Position numbers and translations under genes: made by a program. Under the pieces are notes generated by a model, which had not been told where the DNA came from, ran no database searches, and saw nothing but the letters and a program-made list of their open reading frames with translations. A stretch of 50,402 nucleotides of DNA, taken from the NCBI GenBank assembly GCA_040754625.1, contig JBFMCF010000090.1, positions 1 through 50,402 of the forward strand, given 5' to 3'. The stretch is from a bacterium. Its GTDB lineage: Bacteria; JACRDZ01; JAQUKH01. This document shows, one piece after another, positions 2,818-37,695 of the stretch (positions within the stretch are counted from its first letter, which is position 1; every line of letters starts with the position of its first letter).

Positions 2818-3951
2818 ATGAAAAAAATAAATTTATTCTTAATTTTTATTGCATCGTTTATATTTTTGCGGATGGCGTCCGGGAATAAAAAAGAGTCAAA
2901 TATAAAATTACGCGTAGCCGTTTTTCGCGGTACCGGCCTTGTTTTAACGAATACAGATGGTTTTAATGTCTTATACCCGAAAGAAAACAACAGGAATGCC
3001 GGTTTTCCCAACAGGGTAAATATTTTTTTTAAAGAAGGCAGGCTGTTTTTAGAAGATAAGGAAATTACAAACCCTGTTATTTTTAAATCACGGGAAGATG
3101 ACAGGATAAAGGTCGGGGATAATATATACCGGGGAGATGTTGAAATCAGGCTTGAAGAGGATAATCTTGTTGCTGTGAATGAAATTCCCCTTGAAGAATA
3201 TCTTTTCAGCGTGGTTGGAGGTGAGATTTATCCCTCGTGGCCCATGGAAGTTTTAAAGGCCCAGGCTGTTGCCGCGAGGACATACGCGTTATACCAATAT
3301 GAAAAAAATAAGGATAAAACATACCAGATGGAATCTTCCGTAGATTCACAGAGGTATATAGGTATAGCGGGGGAAAATAAAAATGTAAACAAGGCTGTCC
3401 TTGAAACAAAAGGGATTGTAATGACCTATCACAATAATCTGATACAGGCTTTTTTCCACAGCACATGCGGGGGCAGGACGGAGGATGTTAATTCATTATG
3501 GCCCGGTAACAACCTGCCATATCTTGAAAGCAAAATATGCAGTTTTTGCAGGGACGCGGTAAATTACAATTGGAAGTTCACCATCACAAAATCAGATTTA
3601 GAAAAAATTTTGTCAACAGATGAAAATTTTGGAGGGAAACTCCGTTCCCTGAAAATTGCAAAACTCACGCGTACCGGGAGGGTAAGCGAACTTGTGTTTC
3701 AGACATCTTACGGGGACAAAAAAATAAATGTGTCTGATTTCAGGAAATGGATTGGGCAGGATAAAATTAAAAGCACGCTTTTTAAAACCGATTTTAAAAA
3801 AGATAAATATATTTTTACAGGCCGCGGTTCAGGGCATGGGGTAGGTTTGTGCCAGGAGGGCGCAAAAACACTGGCTGTAAAAAAATACCGGTATGATAAA
3901 ATTTTGAAATTTTATTATCCTGGTATCAAGATAGAAAAATATTCTTTATAA
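2818..3951 (+). CDS. SpoIID/LytB-domain protein (putative peptidoglycan-acting)
   Basis: SpoIID-family proteins are lytic transglycosylases acting on peptidoglycan stripped of stem peptides; LytB proteins are amidase enhancers. This 377-residue protein begins with a signal sequence (about 1-21). A region with short beta repeats leads into the SpoIID core: LEEYLFSVVGGEIYPSW followed by KAQAVAARTYAL (about 128-160). It ends with the conserved GRGSGHGVGLCQEGA (about 339-353). Active-site residues in the core, including the E of GGEIYP and the FHSTCGG segment, are present. The organism is a diderm, so a sporulation role is unlikely; cell-wall remodelling in the periplasm is the better inference. 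Confidence 0.9.
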   Translation: MKKINLFLIFIASFIFLRMASGNKKESNIKLRVAVFRGTGLVLTNTDGFNVLYPKENNRNAGFPNRVNIFFKEGRLFLEDKEITNPVIFKSREDDRIKVGDNIYRGDVEIRLEEDNLVAVNEIPLEEYLFSVVGGEIYPSWPMEVLKAQAVAARTYALYQYEKNKDKTYQMESSVDSQRYIGIAGENKNVNKAVLETKGIVMTYHNNLIQAFFHSTCGGRTEDVNSLWPGNNLPYLESKICSFCRDAVNYNWKFTITKSDLEKILSTDENFGGKLRSLKIAKLTRTGRVSELVFQTSYGDKKINVSDFRKWIGQDKIKSTLFKTDFKKDKYIFTGRGSGHGVGLCQEGAKTLAVKKYRYDKILKFYYPGIKIEKYSL

Positions 3952-4386: not shown

Positions 4387-4431
4387 GCCGTTTCGCGGCA
4401 GCAAAAAATTTAAAGTGTAAAGTTGAAAGTC

Positions 4432-5496
4432 ATGGAAAAAAAACAAAAATATGATTTAACAATTGCAGGTGTAATACTTTCCGGAATTTTACTGGGTGTT
4501 GGAGGGGTGATACTTGAGAAATTCGGAAATCCTTTCCGCACGGGGATTTGTGTGTCCTGTTTCATGGAAAATATCGCGGGGAGCCTGGGATTTCACGCTA
4601 ACAGCCGGATGCAATATATCCGTCCTGAGGTTGCCGGGTTTATTATAGGTGCGTTTTTGCTGAGTTTAATAAGAAATGAATTTAACGTTCGCGGGGGACA
4701 GTCGCCTTTAATCAGGTTTATGCTGGGTGTCTTAATGATGATAGGTGCAGGTGTGTATATAGGATGCCCTATAAAATTATTTTACAGGATATCCGGCGGA
4801 GAAATTATGGGTGTTGTCGGCCTGGCAGGATTGATTGCAGGTGTTTGGGTTGGCGGAGAATATATAAAATCAGGTTTTTCATTAGGGGAATCACGGCCGT
4901 TGAAAAGCGTGGAAGGAATTTTTATTCCTATGACAGCGTTTATTTTATTAATATTTGTTTTTATTAAACCCAGTTTTATTCTTCAAAGCAGTTCCGGGCC
5001 AGGGACGAGGTTTTCACCGGTATATTTATCGTTATTTATTGGATTAATTATAGGAGGGGTTTGTTATTACTCAAGGTATTGTGTTTTGGGAAGCATCAGT
5101 AATTTTATACTTGGAAGAGAGACGACTTTGCTTTACGGGAGTTTCGCCTTTTTAATCAGCGCATTTTTGAGTTATTTTTTTGTAAAGGATTTCCAGCCGG
5201 GGATTATCGCTTATCAGGGGTCATCACCCGATTACCTATGGGATTTTTTAAGCATGGGATTAGTCGGGTTCAGCGGGGCCCTTGCGGGCGGGTGTCCTTT
5301 CAGGCAGATGATTCTTGCCGGGAGCGGCGATAGCGACGCGGGTATTACTGTTTTAGGCCTTTTTGCCGGCGGTGCGATACTCCAGAATTTTAATTTGAAC
5401 AGCACGGCGGGCGGGGTTACTTTTAACGGACAGGCCGCGGTCCTTTTTGGTTTTGCTTTATGTATTATAATCGGGCTTGCGAACAGGGAAATATAG
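4432..5496 (+). CDS. yedE: YeeE/YedE family transporter, YedE-like putative selenium transporter
   Basis: This polytopic membrane protein has about nine to ten hydrophobic helices and two related halves, as in the YeeE/YedE (thiosulfate/sulfur transport) fold. It resembles the subgroup annotated as putative selenium transporters: GNPFRTGICVSCF, LGFHANSRMQYIRPEVAG and IGCPIKLFYRISGGE in the first half, and GGCPFRQMILAGSGDSDAG in the second. The conserved cysteines (GICVSC, GCP, GCP) fit the persulfide-relay mechanism proposed for the family. I chose ATG 4432; a TTG three codons upstream (4423) is possible. No selD or yedF lies in the window, so selenium rather than sulfur as substrate rests on family resemblance. 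Confidence 0.85.
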   Translation: MEKKQKYDLTIAGVILSGILLGVGGVILEKFGNPFRTGICVSCFMENIAGSLGFHANSRMQYIRPEVAGFIIGAFLLSLIRNEFNVRGGQSPLIRFMLGVLMMIGAGVYIGCPIKLFYRISGGEIMGVVGLAGLIAGVWVGGEYIKSGFSLGESRPLKSVEGIFIPMTAFILLIFVFIKPSFILQSSSGPGTRFSPVYLSLFIGLIIGGVCYYSRYCVLGSISNFILGRETTLLYGSFAFLISAFLSYFFVKDFQPGIIAYQGSSPDYLWDFLSMGLVGFSGALAGGCPFRQMILAGSGDSDAGITVLGLFAGGAILQNFNLNSTAGGVTFNGQAAVLFGFALCIIIGLANREI

Positions 5497-30553: not shown

Positions 30554-31945
30554 ATGCCTCAGATATTCAAGAGAAGAATCGAAAATAGAAACCAGCACAT
30601 GATATTTTTTACCAGTATGGTAATTCTTTTCCTTACTGGTTATTTTAAAAGTATTCCAAAATCATGGATAAATTATCTCGGGGACAGCAGGCTTTTCTGG
30701 TCGCAGATTAGCGGGATTCTCCATAGAATAGCGGCGTTTGCGTTTATCGCGTCTTCTCTTTACCATCTGAAATTTTTGTTTGTCAGTTCTGACGGCCGGT
30801 CCAATTTCAAAAACCTGATATTTACCAAACAGGATCTGGTTGATTTCTGGATACATCTTTTATCTTCACTGCATTTGACAAAGAAAAAACTTGTAAGAAA
30901 GCGTTTTTATTATAATGAAAAATGCGATTACTGGATTGTTTTCCAGGGTACTATAGCTTTTATTATTACAGGAACAATCCTCTGGCTGGAAGAATATTTC
31001 GGGAAATTTATTATCGATATTTCCTACATTATTCATAATAAGGAGGCGTTGTGGGGAGTTTATACCATTATCGTCTGGCATTTTTTCAACCTTCATCCCG
31101 AATTTTATCTTTACGCGCGTGAAGATGCGCAGCCATGCGGCCGCGACGAATGCGTGTTCTGCGGGATTTGTGATTTGTTAACACAGGACAAAGACAGCCT
31201 TAACGCATTCTTGAGCGGGGATAAACAGGTGGACAGCCTGACAAAAACATATACTCTGAATTTATGTATTGGTGATGTATTGACAAGAGCGAATAAATTA
31301 AAAGAAAAAGGCATTACTACCTGCAAAGAGGGTGCGGCCGCTTTAGCTTCTGATGCAACGGTTTGCCAGTATGGTTGTATAGGTTTAGGCGATTGTGTGG
31401 CGGTCTGCAGGACGCACGCCAGGTATTTTGACTCCAGCGGAAGGGGGATGATAAACAATTCGTTATGCACCGGGTGCGAGGAGTGTATAAGGGTATGCCC
31501 GCGAAACCTTATTATCATGTATCCCAAAGAAAAACGCGTACATATTCCGTGCCGTTCGCTGGACAAAGGTACAAAGGTCAGGGAGGTATGCGCTGTCGGA
31601 TGTCTGGGGTGCGGGATTTGTGTTAAATTCTGTCCTGTCCAGGCAATTACCCTGGAAAATAACCTGGCAAGACTTGATTATGAGAAATGCATTGAGTGCG
31701 GTATTTGCGCCGCCAAGTGTCCTCACAAGACTATTGTAGATTTGGCAGGCCCGAGGGCGAAAGTTAAAATTGAAACAAGCGGATGCACCGGATGTTCGGA
31801 ATGTGTGAAGGTATGCCCCGTGAAAGCCATCCAGCCCGACGCTGAAAACGCCGGTAAATTCAAAGTATTGGAAGATAAATGTATCGGGTGTAAGATTTGC
31901 ATTGATAAATGCCCTCCAAAATGTATTAAAATAGTGAATAGTTGA
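30554..31945 (+). CDS. Fusion of a cytochrome b561-like membrane domain and an RnfB-like polyferredoxin
   Basis: The 463-residue protein joins two modules. Residues about 1-190 resemble the di-heme cytochrome b subunits of formate dehydrogenase or hydrogenase, with four hydrophobic segments and candidate heme ligands H15, H57, H71, H176 and H181 (HRIAAFAF, SSLYH, WHFFNLH). Residues about 195-463 resemble RnfB, with CQYGCIGLGDCVAVC, LCTGCEECIRVCPRNLI, VPCRSLDKG-like spacing and VCAVGCLGCGICVKFCP. Three more CxxCxxCxxxCP motifs bring the ferredoxin-type set to five. RnfB normally has only one short N-terminal membrane helix and works with RnfACDEG; none of those is here. It probably moves electrons between quinone or heme and ferredoxin at the inner membrane; this is inference. 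Confidence 0.85.
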   Translation: MPQIFKRRIENRNQHMIFFTSMVILFLTGYFKSIPKSWINYLGDSRLFWSQISGILHRIAAFAFIASSLYHLKFLFVSSDGRSNFKNLIFTKQDLVDFWIHLLSSLHLTKKKLVRKRFYYNEKCDYWIVFQGTIAFIITGTILWLEEYFGKFIIDISYIIHNKEALWGVYTIIVWHFFNLHPEFYLYAREDAQPCGRDECVFCGICDLLTQDKDSLNAFLSGDKQVDSLTKTYTLNLCIGDVLTRANKLKEKGITTCKEGAAALASDATVCQYGCIGLGDCVAVCRTHARYFDSSGRGMINNSLCTGCEECIRVCPRNLIIMYPKEKRVHIPCRSLDKGTKVREVCAVGCLGCGICVKFCPVQAITLENNLARLDYEKCIECGICAAKCPHKTIVDLAGPRAKVKIETSGCTGCSECVKVCPVKAIQPDAENAGKFKVLEDKCIGCKICIDKCPPKCIKIVNS

Positions 31946-32012: not shown

Positions 32013-33575
32013 ATGTCCACAAAAAAGCACCTGATTAAATCGACGACAATTATAAGCTTGAGTACAATCCTGAGCAGGATTTTTGGCTTTATACGCGATA
32101 TGATTATCGCTAAATTCCTCGGGACAGGGCTGGTTGCGGATGCCTTTCTTGCAAGTTTCAGCATCCCGAATATGCTGAGGCACCTGATGGGGGAAGGAGT
32201 TTTGAGCGCGGGGCTTGTCCCTGTTTTTACCGAATCAATTGAAAAAAAGGGAAAACAAGATACAAATGCGTTAATGAACAGCGTTTTTTGGATGATTTTG
32301 CTTGTTTCAATTTTTATTACCCTCGCGGTGGTTTTTTTTACGCCCTTTCTCGTAAAATTGGTTGTCCCAGGTTTTATCTCTTCCCCCGAAAAATTAAATT
32401 TAACTATTAAGACAACAAGGTTTTTGATGCCTTATTTAATTTTTATCGGGCTTTCGTCTTGGATAATAGGGATTTTACATTCATACAAGCATTTTTTTAT
32501 CCCTGCCATTTCGTCCGCCGTTTTTAATTTCGGGATTATTATTTCATCTTTGTTTTTAGGGATTTTTTTCCACAGGCCCCTGGAGGGGATAGTGGCAGGC
32601 GTGGTTTTAGGCGGTATTATGCAGGTTTTGGTTCAATGGCCTCTCCTTTTCCGGAGCGGATTCGAGATCCAGTTTATATTCTGGCACCCGTCAATAAAAA
32701 GAATTATAAAGATGGTCGGGCCGGCTGTTTTCGCGCTGGCAGTTACTGAAATCAATATTGCCGTCACAAGGATTTTTGCCTCGTCGGCGTCTTTAGCGGG
32801 AGAGGGGGCGATTTCCATTTTATATTACGCAAGCAGGCTGATCCAGCTCCCGATGGGAATTTTTACAGCGGCTATTTCAACAGCCATTTTGCCGACACTT
32901 TCAAGCCAGTTTATTGAAGGGGATATTGAAAAAGTAAAACTTACTGTTTTTTACGCGTTCCGGTTCGCGTTATTTATTGTAATCCCGGCCGCAACAGGGC
33001 TTATTGTTTTACGTGTTCCTATTATCCGGCTTTTATTTGAAAGAGGGGCCTTTGGCCCGGCTGCCACACAGCAGACTGCTTCGGCGCTTTTGTTTTACAG
33101 TGCTGGAATATTAGGTTATGCAGGAGTGAAAATAATCACTCCTGTTTTTTATTCACTGGGGGATACTTTCACGCCTGCAAAAATAGCGTTAACAATGCTT
33201 GGGACAAGCGTTTTGTTGGATTTTATTTTAGTCCGGATGATGAAATTCCCGGGCCTGGCACTCAGCGTGTCGATTTCAAATTTTATTCAGCTTGCGCTTT
33301 TAATTATCTTTTTAAAAAAGAAAATCGGGGCCATGGGGTTTAAAAATATTTTATTGCCATTAAGCAAAGTAATAATAATTTCTTCAATAATGGGAATAAG
33401 TTGCTTTTGGTTATTTAATTTTATAGAGAAATTTATTGTTTTGGATTTAGCAAGCCAGATTTTTGAAGTGGGGATATGTATATCTTCCGGAGCAATAATA
33501 TTCTTATTTTTAAGCTATATTTTTAAACTGAAAGAAATGGAGATTCTTAAAGAAATAATTGGCAAAAGAGGTTAA
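32013..33575 (+). CDS. murJ: Lipid II flippase MurJ
   Basis: MurJ flips lipid II across the inner membrane for peptidoglycan synthesis. The 520-residue protein has about fourteen transmembrane helices of the MOP superfamily. Conserved features include STILSRIFGFIRDMIIAKFLGTG (about 16-38), ADAFLASFSIPNMLRHLMGEGVLSAGLVPVF, the central cavity Arg residues, and FERGAFG and GVKIITPVFYSLGDTFTP. It lies outside the dcw cluster. It has no strong Shine-Dalgarno because a palindromic repeat abuts the ATG. Confidence 0.95.
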   Translation: MSTKKHLIKSTTIISLSTILSRIFGFIRDMIIAKFLGTGLVADAFLASFSIPNMLRHLMGEGVLSAGLVPVFTESIEKKGKQDTNALMNSVFWMILLVSIFITLAVVFFTPFLVKLVVPGFISSPEKLNLTIKTTRFLMPYLIFIGLSSWIIGILHSYKHFFIPAISSAVFNFGIIISSLFLGIFFHRPLEGIVAGVVLGGIMQVLVQWPLLFRSGFEIQFIFWHPSIKRIIKMVGPAVFALAVTEINIAVTRIFASSASLAGEGAISILYYASRLIQLPMGIFTAAISTAILPTLSSQFIEGDIEKVKLTVFYAFRFALFIVIPAATGLIVLRVPIIRLLFERGAFGPAATQQTASALLFYSAGILGYAGVKIITPVFYSLGDTFTPAKIALTMLGTSVLLDFILVRMMKFPGLALSVSISNFIQLALLIIFLKKKIGAMGFKNILLPLSKVIIISSIMGISCFWLFNFIEKFIVLDLASQIFEVGICISSGAIIFLFLSYIFKLKEMEILKEIIGKRG

Positions 33576-33588
33576 AAAATGTTATAAT
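33559..33588 (+). promoter_or_regulatory. Promoter of the cohesin-peptidase genes
   Basis: TTGGCA (33559-33564), an 18-base spacer and a consensus TATAAT (33583-33588) lie at the end of murJ. The predicted start site (about 33595) is next to the ATG at 33596, so the mRNA would be leaderless. Confidence 0.6.
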
Positions 33589-33595
33589 ATTATGA

Positions 33596-34165
33596 ATGAT
33601 AATAGATAAGCAAAAAGCAGCTACGTTTTTATTATGGATAGAAGTATTAATGCTTCCAGGCTGCAAATGCGGCTCTTCTTCCGATTCAGATATTTCCAAT
33701 TTCCAGGCTAATTTTTTCCCGGCTAATAATCCAGGCAGTGGTTCCATTTATTTAAGTGAATTAAAAAGTGAAAGGGGAAGTCTTACTTTAGGGGTTAATG
33801 CTAAAGATGTCGGGGAGATAAATACCGTTTATTTTGATTTAGTGTATAATCCTTCTGTAATAAATTACTCAGGCAGTGAAGAGGGGGATTTTTTTAAATC
33901 AGGCGGGCAGTCTACCTCTGGTTTCCAGGTTTCGTTACAAAATAAAACAGAGGGACGGATTTATGTCGCCATAAATGTGTTAAATAACTCCCCCGTAAAA
34001 GGAAGCGGATTAATTGGAAAAATAACATTTATTCCAATTGCGGAAGAAAACTTCGCTGTAATTTTTGAGAATAATAAATTATTGAGATATAACTCGTCTT
34101 CCCTGGAATCTTTTGAGATAACAGGTGACTGGTTTGGGGGGGGGATTATAAGTAAAAGGATATAG
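33596..34165 (+). CDS. Cohesin-domain lipoprotein
   Basis: Cohesins bind dockerins and so tether enzymes to scaffolds. The 189 residues begin with a short signal peptide and a lipobox LPGC (Cys23), so the protein should be lipid-anchored. A Ser-rich linker leads to a cohesin-like domain (about 52-165) with SLTLGVNAKDVGEINTVYF, then DLVYNPSVINYSG, then GRIYVAINVLNNSPVKGSG and LIGKITFIPI, the typical strand order of the fold. It stands 8 bases before a gene whose product ends in a dockerin, which makes an interaction likely. No cellulosome genes are near. The leader is essentially absent (TATAAT ends 8 bases before ATG). Confidence 0.75.
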   Translation: MIIDKQKAATFLLWIEVLMLPGCKCGSSSDSDISNFQANFFPANNPGSGSIYLSELKSERGSLTLGVNAKDVGEINTVYFDLVYNPSVINYSGSEEGDFFKSGGQSTSGFQVSLQNKTEGRIYVAINVLNNSPVKGSGLIGKITFIPIAEENFAVIFENNKLLRYNSSSLESFEITGDWFGGGIISKRI

Positions 34166-34173
34166 CCGATATT

Positions 34174-37100
34174 ATGTCTATGAAAAAGATATTGATATTA
34201 TTTTTTTATGTTATTTCTGCAGGATTATTTTTTATTTCTTTTGCCGGCGCGGATAATTCGGCTGTTTCTGATTCTTTTCCATGGCAGGAATTTAAAAAAA
34301 ATTATGGAGAAAACTGGAATGTCAAGTGGAATAAGAAAACAGGAACACCCCATCGTGTTTTTGGCAATAAAAAGCCGGTCACCGGGAAAGACGGTGTTTT
34401 AAAAAGAACAGAAGGACAAAAAAATTTTTCTGAAAGCGAGTTTGAAAGTGTTTCAAGGGCATTTATTGAGCAAAATCAAGGGCTTTTTAAAATAGACAAT
34501 TCAGATTTAAAATTGCAGCGAAGCAGAAAACACGGTCCAATTTTTTATGTAACATTTAAACAGTTATTTCAAAATGTTCCTGTCTACAACAGCCGGGTTG
34601 ATTTCCAGTTTGATAAAGACGGTAACCTTTTATTATTTGGTGCAGACGTTTTTCCGGATATAAATATTCCGGTTTTGCAAAAAATTGATGAAAATAATGC
34701 CGTTAAGATTATAAAGGACGATATTAATTTTAACCCGGAAAAAGATAAAATTTCCGTTCCCGAGCTTTTGATATACCCCGAAGAGATAAAGGAAGGTTTC
34801 AAGTATTATCTTGTGTGGAAATTGGAAGTAACCGTAAAAAGACCGGCGGGCAACTGGGTATATTTTATTGACGCCGAAAATGCTGGTATTAAGATGAAAT
34901 ATAATGATATTAACAATGATATTAGCGGCAAAATAACAGGATATATTTTGCCTTTTTATTCCGGCGATTCGCCTCAGGAGGTTTCTTTCCCTTACGAAAG
35001 TGTATTCGCCGGATCTTATAGTGCCATTTCAAATAAAGACGGAAATTATTCAGTCCCGACTCCCTTTGGGATTTACCTTCTAACATCGGGTTTGTCAGGG
35101 AAATATTTGAACGTGACCAATGAAGATGGAAATAACTCGCTGTTTTATAAAACACTGAATGATAGTGAATCCCAGAATATAATATGGAACACCGGCCTTA
35201 CGTCAGGCTACTATGAGGAAATGAATGTTTATTATCATTCTATGAAAATGCATGATTATATAAAAAGTATCGACCCTGAATTTACCGGTATGGATTATTG
35301 CGTGCCGGCTGTGGTCCGAATTACAGACTATTATAGAGATAATGCGTATTGGAGTAATACGGAAGGCATGGGGTTTGGCGCGGGCACATCAGGTTATTCC
35401 AAAAGCTGGGCATTGTTTGCAGATGTTATTTATCATGAGTATACACATGGAGTTACAGATAGGCTTTATATGCAGGAAGGAGGGTCTCTTGATTATATAG
35501 ACGGCACGGAATCAGGGGCTATGGATGAGGGTTTTTCAGATTACTGGGCCTGCACTCTCACAGATGAGTCTTTGATTGGAGAAGGTCTCTTACATTCGAG
35601 ACCCTATATAAGGAATATTGATAATAATTTTGTCTCTCCTGAGGATTTTTCTGATGAAGTCCATGCAGACGGCCGTATTATCGCGGGGGCCATGTGGAGA
35701 ATGAGAAAATATCTCGGCAGGGACACGGCGGACCGTTTATTCCATTTTGCCCGCTACGGTCTCCCGACTACATTTGCGGACTTTTTTTTGGAGGTTTTAA
35801 TGAAAGATGATGACAATAACAATTTAAGGGACGGGACCCCGAATTCCTCAAATATTTACACGGCTTTTGGAAATTCCGGTATTTCCGGATTGCAGATAGA
35901 GGCAGTTTCTATAGATGATAATGACGGGGGAAACGGCAACGGCAGGGTGAATCCCGGGGAAAAGATAAGTATCATAGTAACGTTAGAAAATAAAATGTTT
36001 GAAGACGCTGAAGATATCCGGGCCGTTTTATCCACGGGGGATATTTTCACGGATATTATATCGGATCAAGCCTTTTTCGGAAATATAAACGAAGGATTGA
36101 AGGCTGACGGATTGTTTACGGTTTTAGTAAATAAATCCACGCCCATTGATTATTTAATTTCTTTTAATCTGAAAATCACCGATAAAAAAGGATATACTTT
36201 TGAACTGCCTTTTGACATAAATATTACTGATGTTATTGAAAAAAAGTGGAAGGTTGAAACTATTACAGGTATTTCTAATCTGCCGGATTATGCGGGCAGC
36301 CGCGTGTTAGAGAGGGATAAAGACGGGAATTTTCATCTATTGTATGGATACAGCTCTTTGAATTATGCCTTTTATGATAATAATAAATGGGTAACGTATC
36401 TTTTAGACAGCAGTAAGCTGTATTCTTACAATTATTCATTATGTTTAGCCGGTAATATCCCGCACATAGTCCATAATTTTGCGGATTACACCGGGAGTTA
36501 TTTAAAATATAAAAAATTGGCCAACGGACAATGGGAAACAGAAATCATAGATTCAAACTATTATTCACGATACAGCTATCCATCTTTGATTCTTGACAGC
36601 AGTTATAATCCCCACATAAGCTATTCCATTAACAGCAATATTTTTTACAATTATCGCGACAGTGATGGAAATTGGAAAACAGAGGAAGTTGATACTGTCC
36701 ATTGCGGTTCTAATAACTCGCTTGGGATCGGGAAAAATAATCTAATTCAAATCGGTTATTATGATTTCTGCTGCGGGGGATTGAGATATGCCAAACGGGC
36801 ATCCGGCTGGGAAAATGGTTTTTTAGACATTTCAGTTGATATTGGCAAATATACCTGTTTAAGAATCGGGACAGATGGATACCCTCACATTACTTACTAT
36901 GACAATGATAAAGGAAATTTAAAATACATGTATTGGGATGGTTATTCATGGGAAACAAAAATAGTTGATTTTGACGGTGATGCCGGGTTATATCCTTCAA
37001 TGGCCGTAGATTGGAAAAACAGGCCGCATATCGCATATTATGATAAAACAAATGGCGCCTTAAAATATGCTTATTACAACGGAGAATTTTGGGAGATAAC

Positions 37101-37695
37101 TGTAATAGATGATTCTGATGACGCGGGATATTATCCTGCTATGGTTATTGACGAAAATAGGTTGCCGCATGTTGCTTATTATTCAAAAAGTACAGATGGG
37201 AATATTTATTTAAAATTTGCATCCAGCCGTTTAATGGCCTCTCCTGTTTATTTAAATCCGGAAAATAATACTTTTACCGGCTTGGATGTTACGCTCCAGT
37301 GGGAGGTAAACAATATAAATGAGGGGGATACGATAAGTTATGATGTTTATTTTGATACGTCCGGGGCCGGTACAAAAATAGCGGAAAATATTTCTGATTC
37401 TTCTTACACTTTAAATAATTTGGAATACCGCAAAACTTACTATTGGAGGATTATTTACCGGGACAAAAATAAATTTGAATCCAGGGGGCCTGTTTATAGA
37501 TTTAAAACAACAATGGCGGGAGATATAGATAAAAACGGGATTGTCGATGGTGATGATTTGGTTCCATTTGCAAATTCTTTTGGTTCGACTAAAGATTTTA
37601 GTATGTATAAGTCGATAAGTGATATTGATCTGAATGGCCGCATAGATGGCGCAGATTTGATGTTTATAGGAATGAATTTCGGGAAAAGTTATTAA
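34174..37695 (+). CDS. Secreted M36/M4-type metallopeptidase with C-terminal dockerin
   Basis: This 1173-residue exported protease starts with a signal peptide (about 1-26). Then come a fungalysin/thermolysin propeptide (FTP, about 88-150), a PepSY-like region, and the zinc peptidase domain with HEYTH (421-425) and TESGAMDEGFSD, where E446 is the likely third ligand. The M36-like DEVHADGRIIAGAMW follows. After it is a CARDB-like segment (NGNGRVNPGEKI, about 590-660), about six propeller-like repeats (PHITYYDNDKG and PHIAYYDKTNG types, about 700-1020), an FN3-like domain (about 1030-1115), and a dockerin with two Ca-binding loops, DIDKNGIVDGDDL and DIDLNGRIDGADL, to the end. The adjacent cohesin lipoprotein could hold it at the cell surface. 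Confidence 0.9.
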   Translation: MSMKKILILFFYVISAGLFFISFAGADNSAVSDSFPWQEFKKNYGENWNVKWNKKTGTPHRVFGNKKPVTGKDGVLKRTEGQKNFSESEFESVSRAFIEQNQGLFKIDNSDLKLQRSRKHGPIFYVTFKQLFQNVPVYNSRVDFQFDKDGNLLLFGADVFPDINIPVLQKIDENNAVKIIKDDINFNPEKDKISVPELLIYPEEIKEGFKYYLVWKLEVTVKRPAGNWVYFIDAENAGIKMKYNDINNDISGKITGYILPFYSGDSPQEVSFPYESVFAGSYSAISNKDGNYSVPTPFGIYLLTSGLSGKYLNVTNEDGNNSLFYKTLNDSESQNIIWNTGLTSGYYEEMNVYYHSMKMHDYIKSIDPEFTGMDYCVPAVVRITDYYRDNAYWSNTEGMGFGAGTSGYSKSWALFADVIYHEYTHGVTDRLYMQEGGSLDYIDGTESGAMDEGFSDYWACTLTDESLIGEGLLHSRPYIRNIDNNFVSPEDFSDEVHADGRIIAGAMWRMRKYLGRDTADRLFHFARYGLPTTFADFFLEVLMKDDDNNNLRDGTPNSSNIYTAFGNSGISGLQIEAVSIDDNDGGNGNGRVNPGEKISIIVTLENKMFEDAEDIRAVLSTGDIFTDIISDQAFFGNINEGLKADGLFTVLVNKSTPIDYLISFNLKITDKKGYTFELPFDINITDVIEKKWKVETITGISNLPDYAGSRVLERDKDGNFHLLYGYSSLNYAFYDNNKWVTYLLDSSKLYSYNYSLCLAGNIPHIVHNFADYTGSYLKYKKLANGQWETEIIDSNYYSRYSYPSLILDSSYNPHISYSINSNIFYNYRDSDGNWKTEEVDTVHCGSNNSLGIGKNNLIQIGYYDFCCGGLRYAKRASGWENGFLDISVDIGKYTCLRIGTDGYPHITYYDNDKGNLKYMYWDGYSWETKIVDFDGDAGLYPSMAVDWKNRPHIAYYDKTNGALKYAYYNGEFWEITVIDDSDDAGYYPAMVIDENRLPHVAYYSKSTDGNIYLKFASSRLMASPVYLNPENNTFTGLDVTLQWEVNNINEGDTISYDVYFDTSGAGTKIAENISDSSYTLNNLEYRKTYYWRIIYRDKNKFESRGPVYRFKTTMAGDIDKNGIVDGDDLVPFANSFGSTKDFSMYKSISDIDLNGRIDGADLMFIGMNFGKSY

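Follow-up and report, generated by a model that had tools for sequence, protein, structure and literature searches.

Proposed tethering of a protease by its neighbour

How is a secreted protease kept at the cell when the gene directly before its own encodes a small lipoprotein with a cohesin domain? This question is raised by a stretch of 50,402 nucleotides (contig JBFMCF010000090.1, assembly GCA_040754625.1; hereafter the window), in which a predicted cohesin lipoprotein and a predicted secreted metallopeptidase ending in a dockerin are encoded side by side (Table 1). The two open reading frames (ORFs) are co-directional with a gap of 8 bases, and the coordinates and spacing given in a first-pass annotation, made from the DNA alone, proved exact. 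Nearly all that is known of cohesin-dockerin attachment comes from cellulosomes, in which many enzymes share one scaffold. The pair described here is probably a non-cellulosomal cassette of one anchor and one client that would tether the client to the surface of a diderm envelope. Lipidated at Cys23, the lipoprotein would sit in the outer membrane and leave its one cohesin domain free. The C-terminal dockerin of the secreted protease would fold with Ca2+ and bind the neighbouring cohesin, and each anchor would thereby keep one peptidase, with its propeller-like and fn3 parts, at the envelope; no scaffoldin would take part. This design would be reused in the genus with exchangeable cargo, within housekeeping gene clusters. 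From the features described below we infer that the partners bind, that the pair is specific, that the client is exported through the outer membrane and that the peptidase is active.

The small protein with a cohesin-like domain that had been annotated is borne out by a PF00963 match above the gathering cut-off. When a profile of 12 family members was compared with the PDB, solved cohesins and scaffoldins ranked first (3l8q, E 6.5e-8); a phmmer search of the PDB with the window lipoprotein alone gave no match. An AlphaFold2 (AF2) model of the lipoprotein was built from nine sequences (pLDDT 72, pTM 0.68; signal peptide and one loop poor). All 50 PDB matches listed for this model are cohesin entries, with a best E-value of 7.3e-6 and a probability of 1.00, including the non-cellulosomal cohesin of Archaeoglobus fulgidus (2xdh, among the best), OlpA (3ul4) and OlpC (4dh2). 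As the annotation had supposed, the domain is predicted to adopt the cohesin jelly-roll fold. Cys23 is invariant in all 12 aligned paralogues and orthologues, and the residues preceding it vary.

The N-terminus of the protease is signal-peptide-like. Its zinc site HEYTH spans residues 421-425 and the third-ligand motif ESGAMDEGFSD starts at 446. Both Pfam families score above their cut-offs, namely PF02128 (M36; 33.4 against 23.3 bits) and PF01447 (M4; 30.5 against 22.4), and the PDB match is fungal Mep (E 8.1e-4). The FTP propeptide PF07504 is matched weakly, with 18.3 bits against a cut-off of 21. By cut-off score, HExxH and distal Glu, the protein is predicted to be an M36 (fungalysin)/M4-like peptidase, in agreement with its annotation. 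The propeller repeats described before are retained as blade-like repeats of about 47 amino acids (aa), starting near residues 801, 892, 939 and 986 and with relatives in other proteins of the phylum; no Pfam propeller model matches them and no credible PDB sequence match was found. The C-terminus carries two canonical tandem F-hand Ca-loops, DIDKNGIVDGDDL (residue 1117) and DIDLNGRIDGADL (residue 1150), and in a dockerin profile built with congeneric counterparts, solved dockerins rank first (2y3n_B, E 6.2e-10). On these sequence grounds it may be called a dockerin in the broad sense.

The pair as one of a set

The window genome (G000; 2.75 Mb, 98% complete) was compared with one congener (G001, the metagenome-assembled genome of isolate STD1_102), with G002 from the same phylum and with G222 from another phylum. 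The annotation had spoken of a single anchor; instead, the window lipoprotein is one of a set of anchor-client cassettes. PF00963 matches four proteins of the window genome. Besides the window lipoprotein, these are a lipoprotein that stands alone (C66), a secretin-like protein (C128) and a 1162-aa protein (C138). Pfam misses a fifth cohesin, that of a 185-aa lipoprotein (C107); a 108-aa secreted dockerin-only protein ends 14 bases 5' of this lipoprotein. The congener encodes about ten small cohesin lipoproteins, six of which directly adjoin a gene ending in a dockerin. Their clients are a subtilase with LVIVD and PKD (C24), an RCC1 propeller (C8), a PKD protein (C1), a propeller-like protein (C31), a VWA protein (C30) and a dockerin-only counterpart of the C107 client (C3). 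Across both genomes this amounts to eight tight pairs, with gaps of -11 to +18 bp and with either gene first; one further pair each was found in G002 and G222. What recurs is this type of gene pair, in the two congeneric genomes and in two others, which bears out the annotation. Two more cohesin lipoproteins of the congener (C46 and the end of C8) stand at contig ends, where their neighbours cannot be judged.

The dockerin-only proteins (L016:181-507 in the window genome, L084 about 4430-4867 in the congener) are secreted, have 108-139 aa and lie beside their cohesin lipoprotein. Their neighbours in both congeners are a protein of 1.1-1.3 thousand residues and a chain-length-determinant-like gene. 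At the end of L082, the C46 locus is a cohesin-first pair cut by the contig end inside DUF5122 repeats; at the start of L142, the contig of C10 begins inside DUF5122 repeats and encodes a C-terminal dockerin, so that the two are possibly halves of one client gene.

In the congener, four of the seven Pfam-detected dockerin genes directly adjoin one of the roughly ten small cohesin genes (binomial P ~1.4e-7, counting Pfam-detected dockerins only and with an estimated ~2500 genes). Chance or mis-annotation as the source of the pairs was ruled out by the profile, fold and adjacency evidence. The adjacency also bears on whether the partners bind at all. The dockerin might be a mere Ca-stabilised end cap and the cohesin-fold lipoprotein might have another role, such as that of a generic adhesin-like sandwich, so that the two would be linked neighbours without mutual binding. 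Each domain does occur alone in many genomes, domain presence alone does not fix function (PMC9012536), and a cohesin domain is also part of the 650-aa secretin-like protein of the window genome. However, an adjacency P of about 1e-7 is reached although the cargo is largely unrelated, and even the minimal 108-aa dockerin-only protein is paired with a cohesin lipoprotein. We regard the end-cap explanation as improbable.

The secretin-like protein (L011:5328-7280 and L081:4691-7235) has its cohesin domain at the C-terminus and belongs to a type II secretion/type IV pilus-like operon. In the congener, an extra free 185-aa copy of this cohesin domain lies alongside.

A further question is whether the lipoprotein anchors a larger multi-enzyme scaffold, as in a minimal cellulosome-type complex. 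Complexes in which cohesins and dockerins hold peptidases have been suggested for Planctomycetes (PMC6461901) and Cloacimonadota (PMC8542988). Against this, no multi-cohesin scaffoldin is visible by Pfam in the whole window genome, where each of the four PF00963 matches is a single domain in a separate ORF, and the dockerin proteins scanned carry PKD, fn3, RCC1, NHL, peptidase or VWA domains and no glycoside hydrolase catalytic domain. A cellulosome was rejected on these results, leaving a scaffold of this kind highly improbable, and the non-cellulosomal surface attachment proposed in the annotation is supported.

Joint presence or absence of the two genes and exchange of cargo

As listed in Table 1 for the window, the pair lies on the forward strand. 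In the congener, the gap between murJ and kdsA is 22 bp with no pair in it, and lptC and lptA follow as in the window. Conversely, the C31 pair of the congener lies between a porin-like gene and pyrR, and in the window genome the same two genes are only 210 bp apart and the pair is absent. Thus, the two genes of a pair are present or absent together at a site. At the murJ-kdsA junction, inspection by eye revealed neither a repeat nor any hallmark of an insertion sequence. The congener also has a cohesin lipoprotein before ruvB, a place taken by ruvA in the window; the contig ends there.

Outside the dockerin, BLAST detects no similarity between most regions of the clients; PKD-type stretches and the RCC1 case of C84 and C8 are the exceptions. 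Because the cargo is largely unrelated, no part other than the dockerin is shared by all clients. Residues 38-743 of C84, the RCC1 region of this solo dockerin protein of the window genome, align with the cargo of the paired C8 protein of the congener at 60% identity over 713 aa. The congener's counterpart of C84 (C1, 159 kb) lacks the RCC1 part and shares only a later part of the protein. These alignments indicate that cargo is exchanged between dockerin genes. The same propeller of ~700 aa is thus found in a solo dockerin protein in one species and in a paired one in the other (L017:3823-8256, L077:4949-7792, L143:6252-9266).

Weighing the tether

Several results weigh against a one-anchor/one-client tether. 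In each congener, at least one cohesin lipoprotein lacks an adjacent dockerin gene, and some dockerin proteins have no cohesin next to them; in G001, the cohesin lipoproteins concerned are C44 (the counterpart of C66) and a 372-aa PKD-cohesin lipoprotein. In other phyla, most of the small cohesin lipoproteins examined have no adjacent dockerin, which makes the cassette chiefly a trait of this lineage. In the annotated lipobox, L-P-G-C23, the cysteine stands, but Pro at -2 is atypical. The annotated dockerin keeps both its Ca-loops and its family profile, but the window protein alone reaches only 21.0 bits with Dockerin_1 (PF00404), below the cut-off of 22.9; several paired dockerins of the congener likewise fall under the Pfam dockerin cut-off. 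AF2 gave a poor model of the window dockerin alone (pLDDT 60), with three helices where expected and no significant PDB match. Finally, the distance matrices of cohesins and dockerins correlate over nine pairs (r = 0.91, permutation p ~5e-4), which favours the tether. The correlation is carried by about three divergence classes, however, and loses significance when only the five closest certain pairs are taken (r = 0.29, p = 0.23); in addition, the ninth pair presupposes that contig ends C46 and C10 join. Overall, the matrices support joint descent or co-adaptation of cohesin and dockerin, and not yet orthogonality.

The lack of significant covariation among these five pairs fits a shared pool, in which any cohesin lipoprotein holds any dockerin client, adjacency merely co-expresses the two, and solo cohesins and dockerins pair in trans. 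This would be a variant of the tether without pair specificity. A solo cohesin lipoprotein (C66/C44) and solo dockerin proteins (C65/C32 and C84/C1) are indeed conserved in both congeners. On the other hand, the pairs form distinct sequence classes whose cohesins and dockerins diverge together, with an identity of ~20-25% between cohesin classes, and one copy of a generic socket would suffice. Such a pool is a serious possibility, if short of probable. More doubtful is the opposite extreme, which we offer tentatively, a natural plug-and-play system for surface display: a set of mutually orthogonal cohesin-lipoprotein/dockerin pairs, with each anchor specific for its neighbour, the genes entering and leaving housekeeping clusters together and the cargo swapped between dockerin tails.

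Location and expression

In the window, murJ lies upstream of the pair and kdsA, lptC, lptA and lptB directly downstream. The kdsA and lpt genes show the cell to be a diderm with a lipopolysaccharide (LPS)-type outer membrane. The annotation had placed the peptidase at the cell envelope; this holds as a tether reading and is refined here to the outer membrane, the most likely location because the envelope is diderm. Surface exposure is again something that we infer. By default, diderm lipoproteins face the periplasm, which counts in favour of a periplasmic tether, with a client whose targets lie within the envelope, such as peptidoglycan or envelope proteins; also, no surface-export signal was established for the lipoprotein. 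The M36 protease, subtilase, VWA, PKD and propeller cargo would, however, be typical of extracellular proteins. A periplasmic placement is therefore rather unlikely in our judgement, and the surface tether is preferred.

Upstream of the lipoprotein gene, the end of the -10 element of a sigma-70-like promoter is 7 nucleotides (nt) from the ATG. Its -10 region, TTAAAAAATGnTATAAT, is kept in the congener directly 5' of kdsA, the stretch shared by the two being TTAAAAAATG(T/A)TATAAT. In the window, the pair thus sits between kdsA and the promoter that precedes kdsA in the congener (L154 around 3050-3086). In the window and the loci examined of both genomes, 16 of the 35 TATAAT sites in the last 100 nt cluster 0-14 nt 5' of an ATG, with the caveat that bases that near start codons are more often intergenic. 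Because of the 7-nt distance and the concentration of TATAAT less than 15 nt from starts in both genomes, the leaderless mRNA predicted earlier for the lipoprotein is plausible. The TATAAT clustering suggests that leaderless mRNAs are common in the genus. Upstream of murJ, at 30554-31945, the window encodes a 463-aa polyferredoxin-like protein with many CxxCxxC-type clusters, found in the same place in the congener (L154:79-1467).

Table 1. Predicted features of the cohesin lipoprotein/dockerin protease pair (positions in the window)
Feature	Position	Strand	Basis
Sigma-70-like promoter, TTGGCA-18-TATAAT	33559..33588	+	11/12 consensus positions
Cohesin lipoprotein gene, putative anchor (189 aa)	33596..34165	+	ORF, PF00963, predicted fold
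Lipoprotein signal peptide ending LPGC, Cys23	33596..33664	+	Cys23 conservation
Cohesin domain, PF00963, residues 62-151	33779..34048	+	26.4 bits vs gathering cut-off 24.1
M36/M4-like metallopeptidase gene with dockerin, predicted secreted client (1173 aa)	34174..37695	+	
Metallopeptidase catalytic region; HEYTH 35434-35448, distal Glu in ESGAMDEGFSD from 35509	35170..35568	+	
Propeller-like repeats, ~47 aa each	36574..37203	+	blade-resembling sequence
fn3-like domain	37282..37467	+	17.3 bits, below cut-off
C-terminal dockerin; Ca-loops 37522-37560 and 37621-37659	37519..37692	+	

Comparison with known systems

Both domains are known, as is the idea of non-cellulosomal cohesin-dockerin attachment. 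What is new is a whole set of anchor-client cassettes in one genome, with cargo that is exchangeable; it gives the impression of a kit used repeatedly to attach secreted proteins to the cell envelope. In the open literature searched, no account was found of lipoprotein-cohesin/dockerin gene pairs repeated in one genome; an earlier description of similar pairs is possible. In a little-studied diderm, attachment would need no more than a single lipid anchor with a single client, a design multiplied in the genome with different cargo. Natural, sequence-divergent pairs within one organism offer a direct test bed for the evolution of cohesin-dockerin specificity.

Among known anchors, the clostridial OlpA/OlpC type is similar in that a single cohesin tethers a dockerin protein to the cell. 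These anchors are attached to the S-layer of monoderm cells, whereas the window anchor is probably lipid-anchored, belongs to a diderm and is encoded next to its client.

The A. fulgidus pair (2xdh), like the window pair, consists of a single cohesin and a dockerin without a scaffoldin. It is archaeal, and its description mentions neither a lipoprotein that holds a peptidase nor a family of repeated cassettes (PMC9705933). AfuCoh76 and AfuDoc75 bind strongly and have been used to engineer surface attachment on E. coli (PMC9705933). The pairs described here could supply ready-made parts for protein display on Gram-negative cells, so far engineered with this archaeal pair (PMC9705933).

In the bacterial 'Planctosome' proposed for freshwater Planctomycetes, peptidases would likewise be attached by cohesin and dockerin with no link to cellulose (PMC6461901). 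That system is a multi-protein one, with a large anchoring protein and an adaptor carrying both modules, in contrast to a 189-aa lipoprotein and one client side by side. The cellulosome-like complex proposed for Ca. Stygibacter (Cloacimonadota), also from a candidate phylum, has dockerin-tagged secreted peptidases and other enzymes (PMC8542988). It differs by a 3,755-aa scaffoldin with tandem cohesins and a C-terminal domain (CTD) anchor, and the window genome has no scaffoldin. For anaerobic methanotrophic (ANME) archaea and their syntrophic sulfate-reducing bacteria (SRB), non-cellulosomal cohesin and dockerin proteins with gain and loss between close relatives and with adjacent domains have been reported (PMC9012536, PMC10553843). 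These are proposed to act in consortium adhesion or protein attachment and are not lipoprotein/client cassettes. In the Planctomycetes, the Cloacimonadota and the ANME archaea with their partners, the anchors are large proteins, scaffoldins or S-layer proteins.

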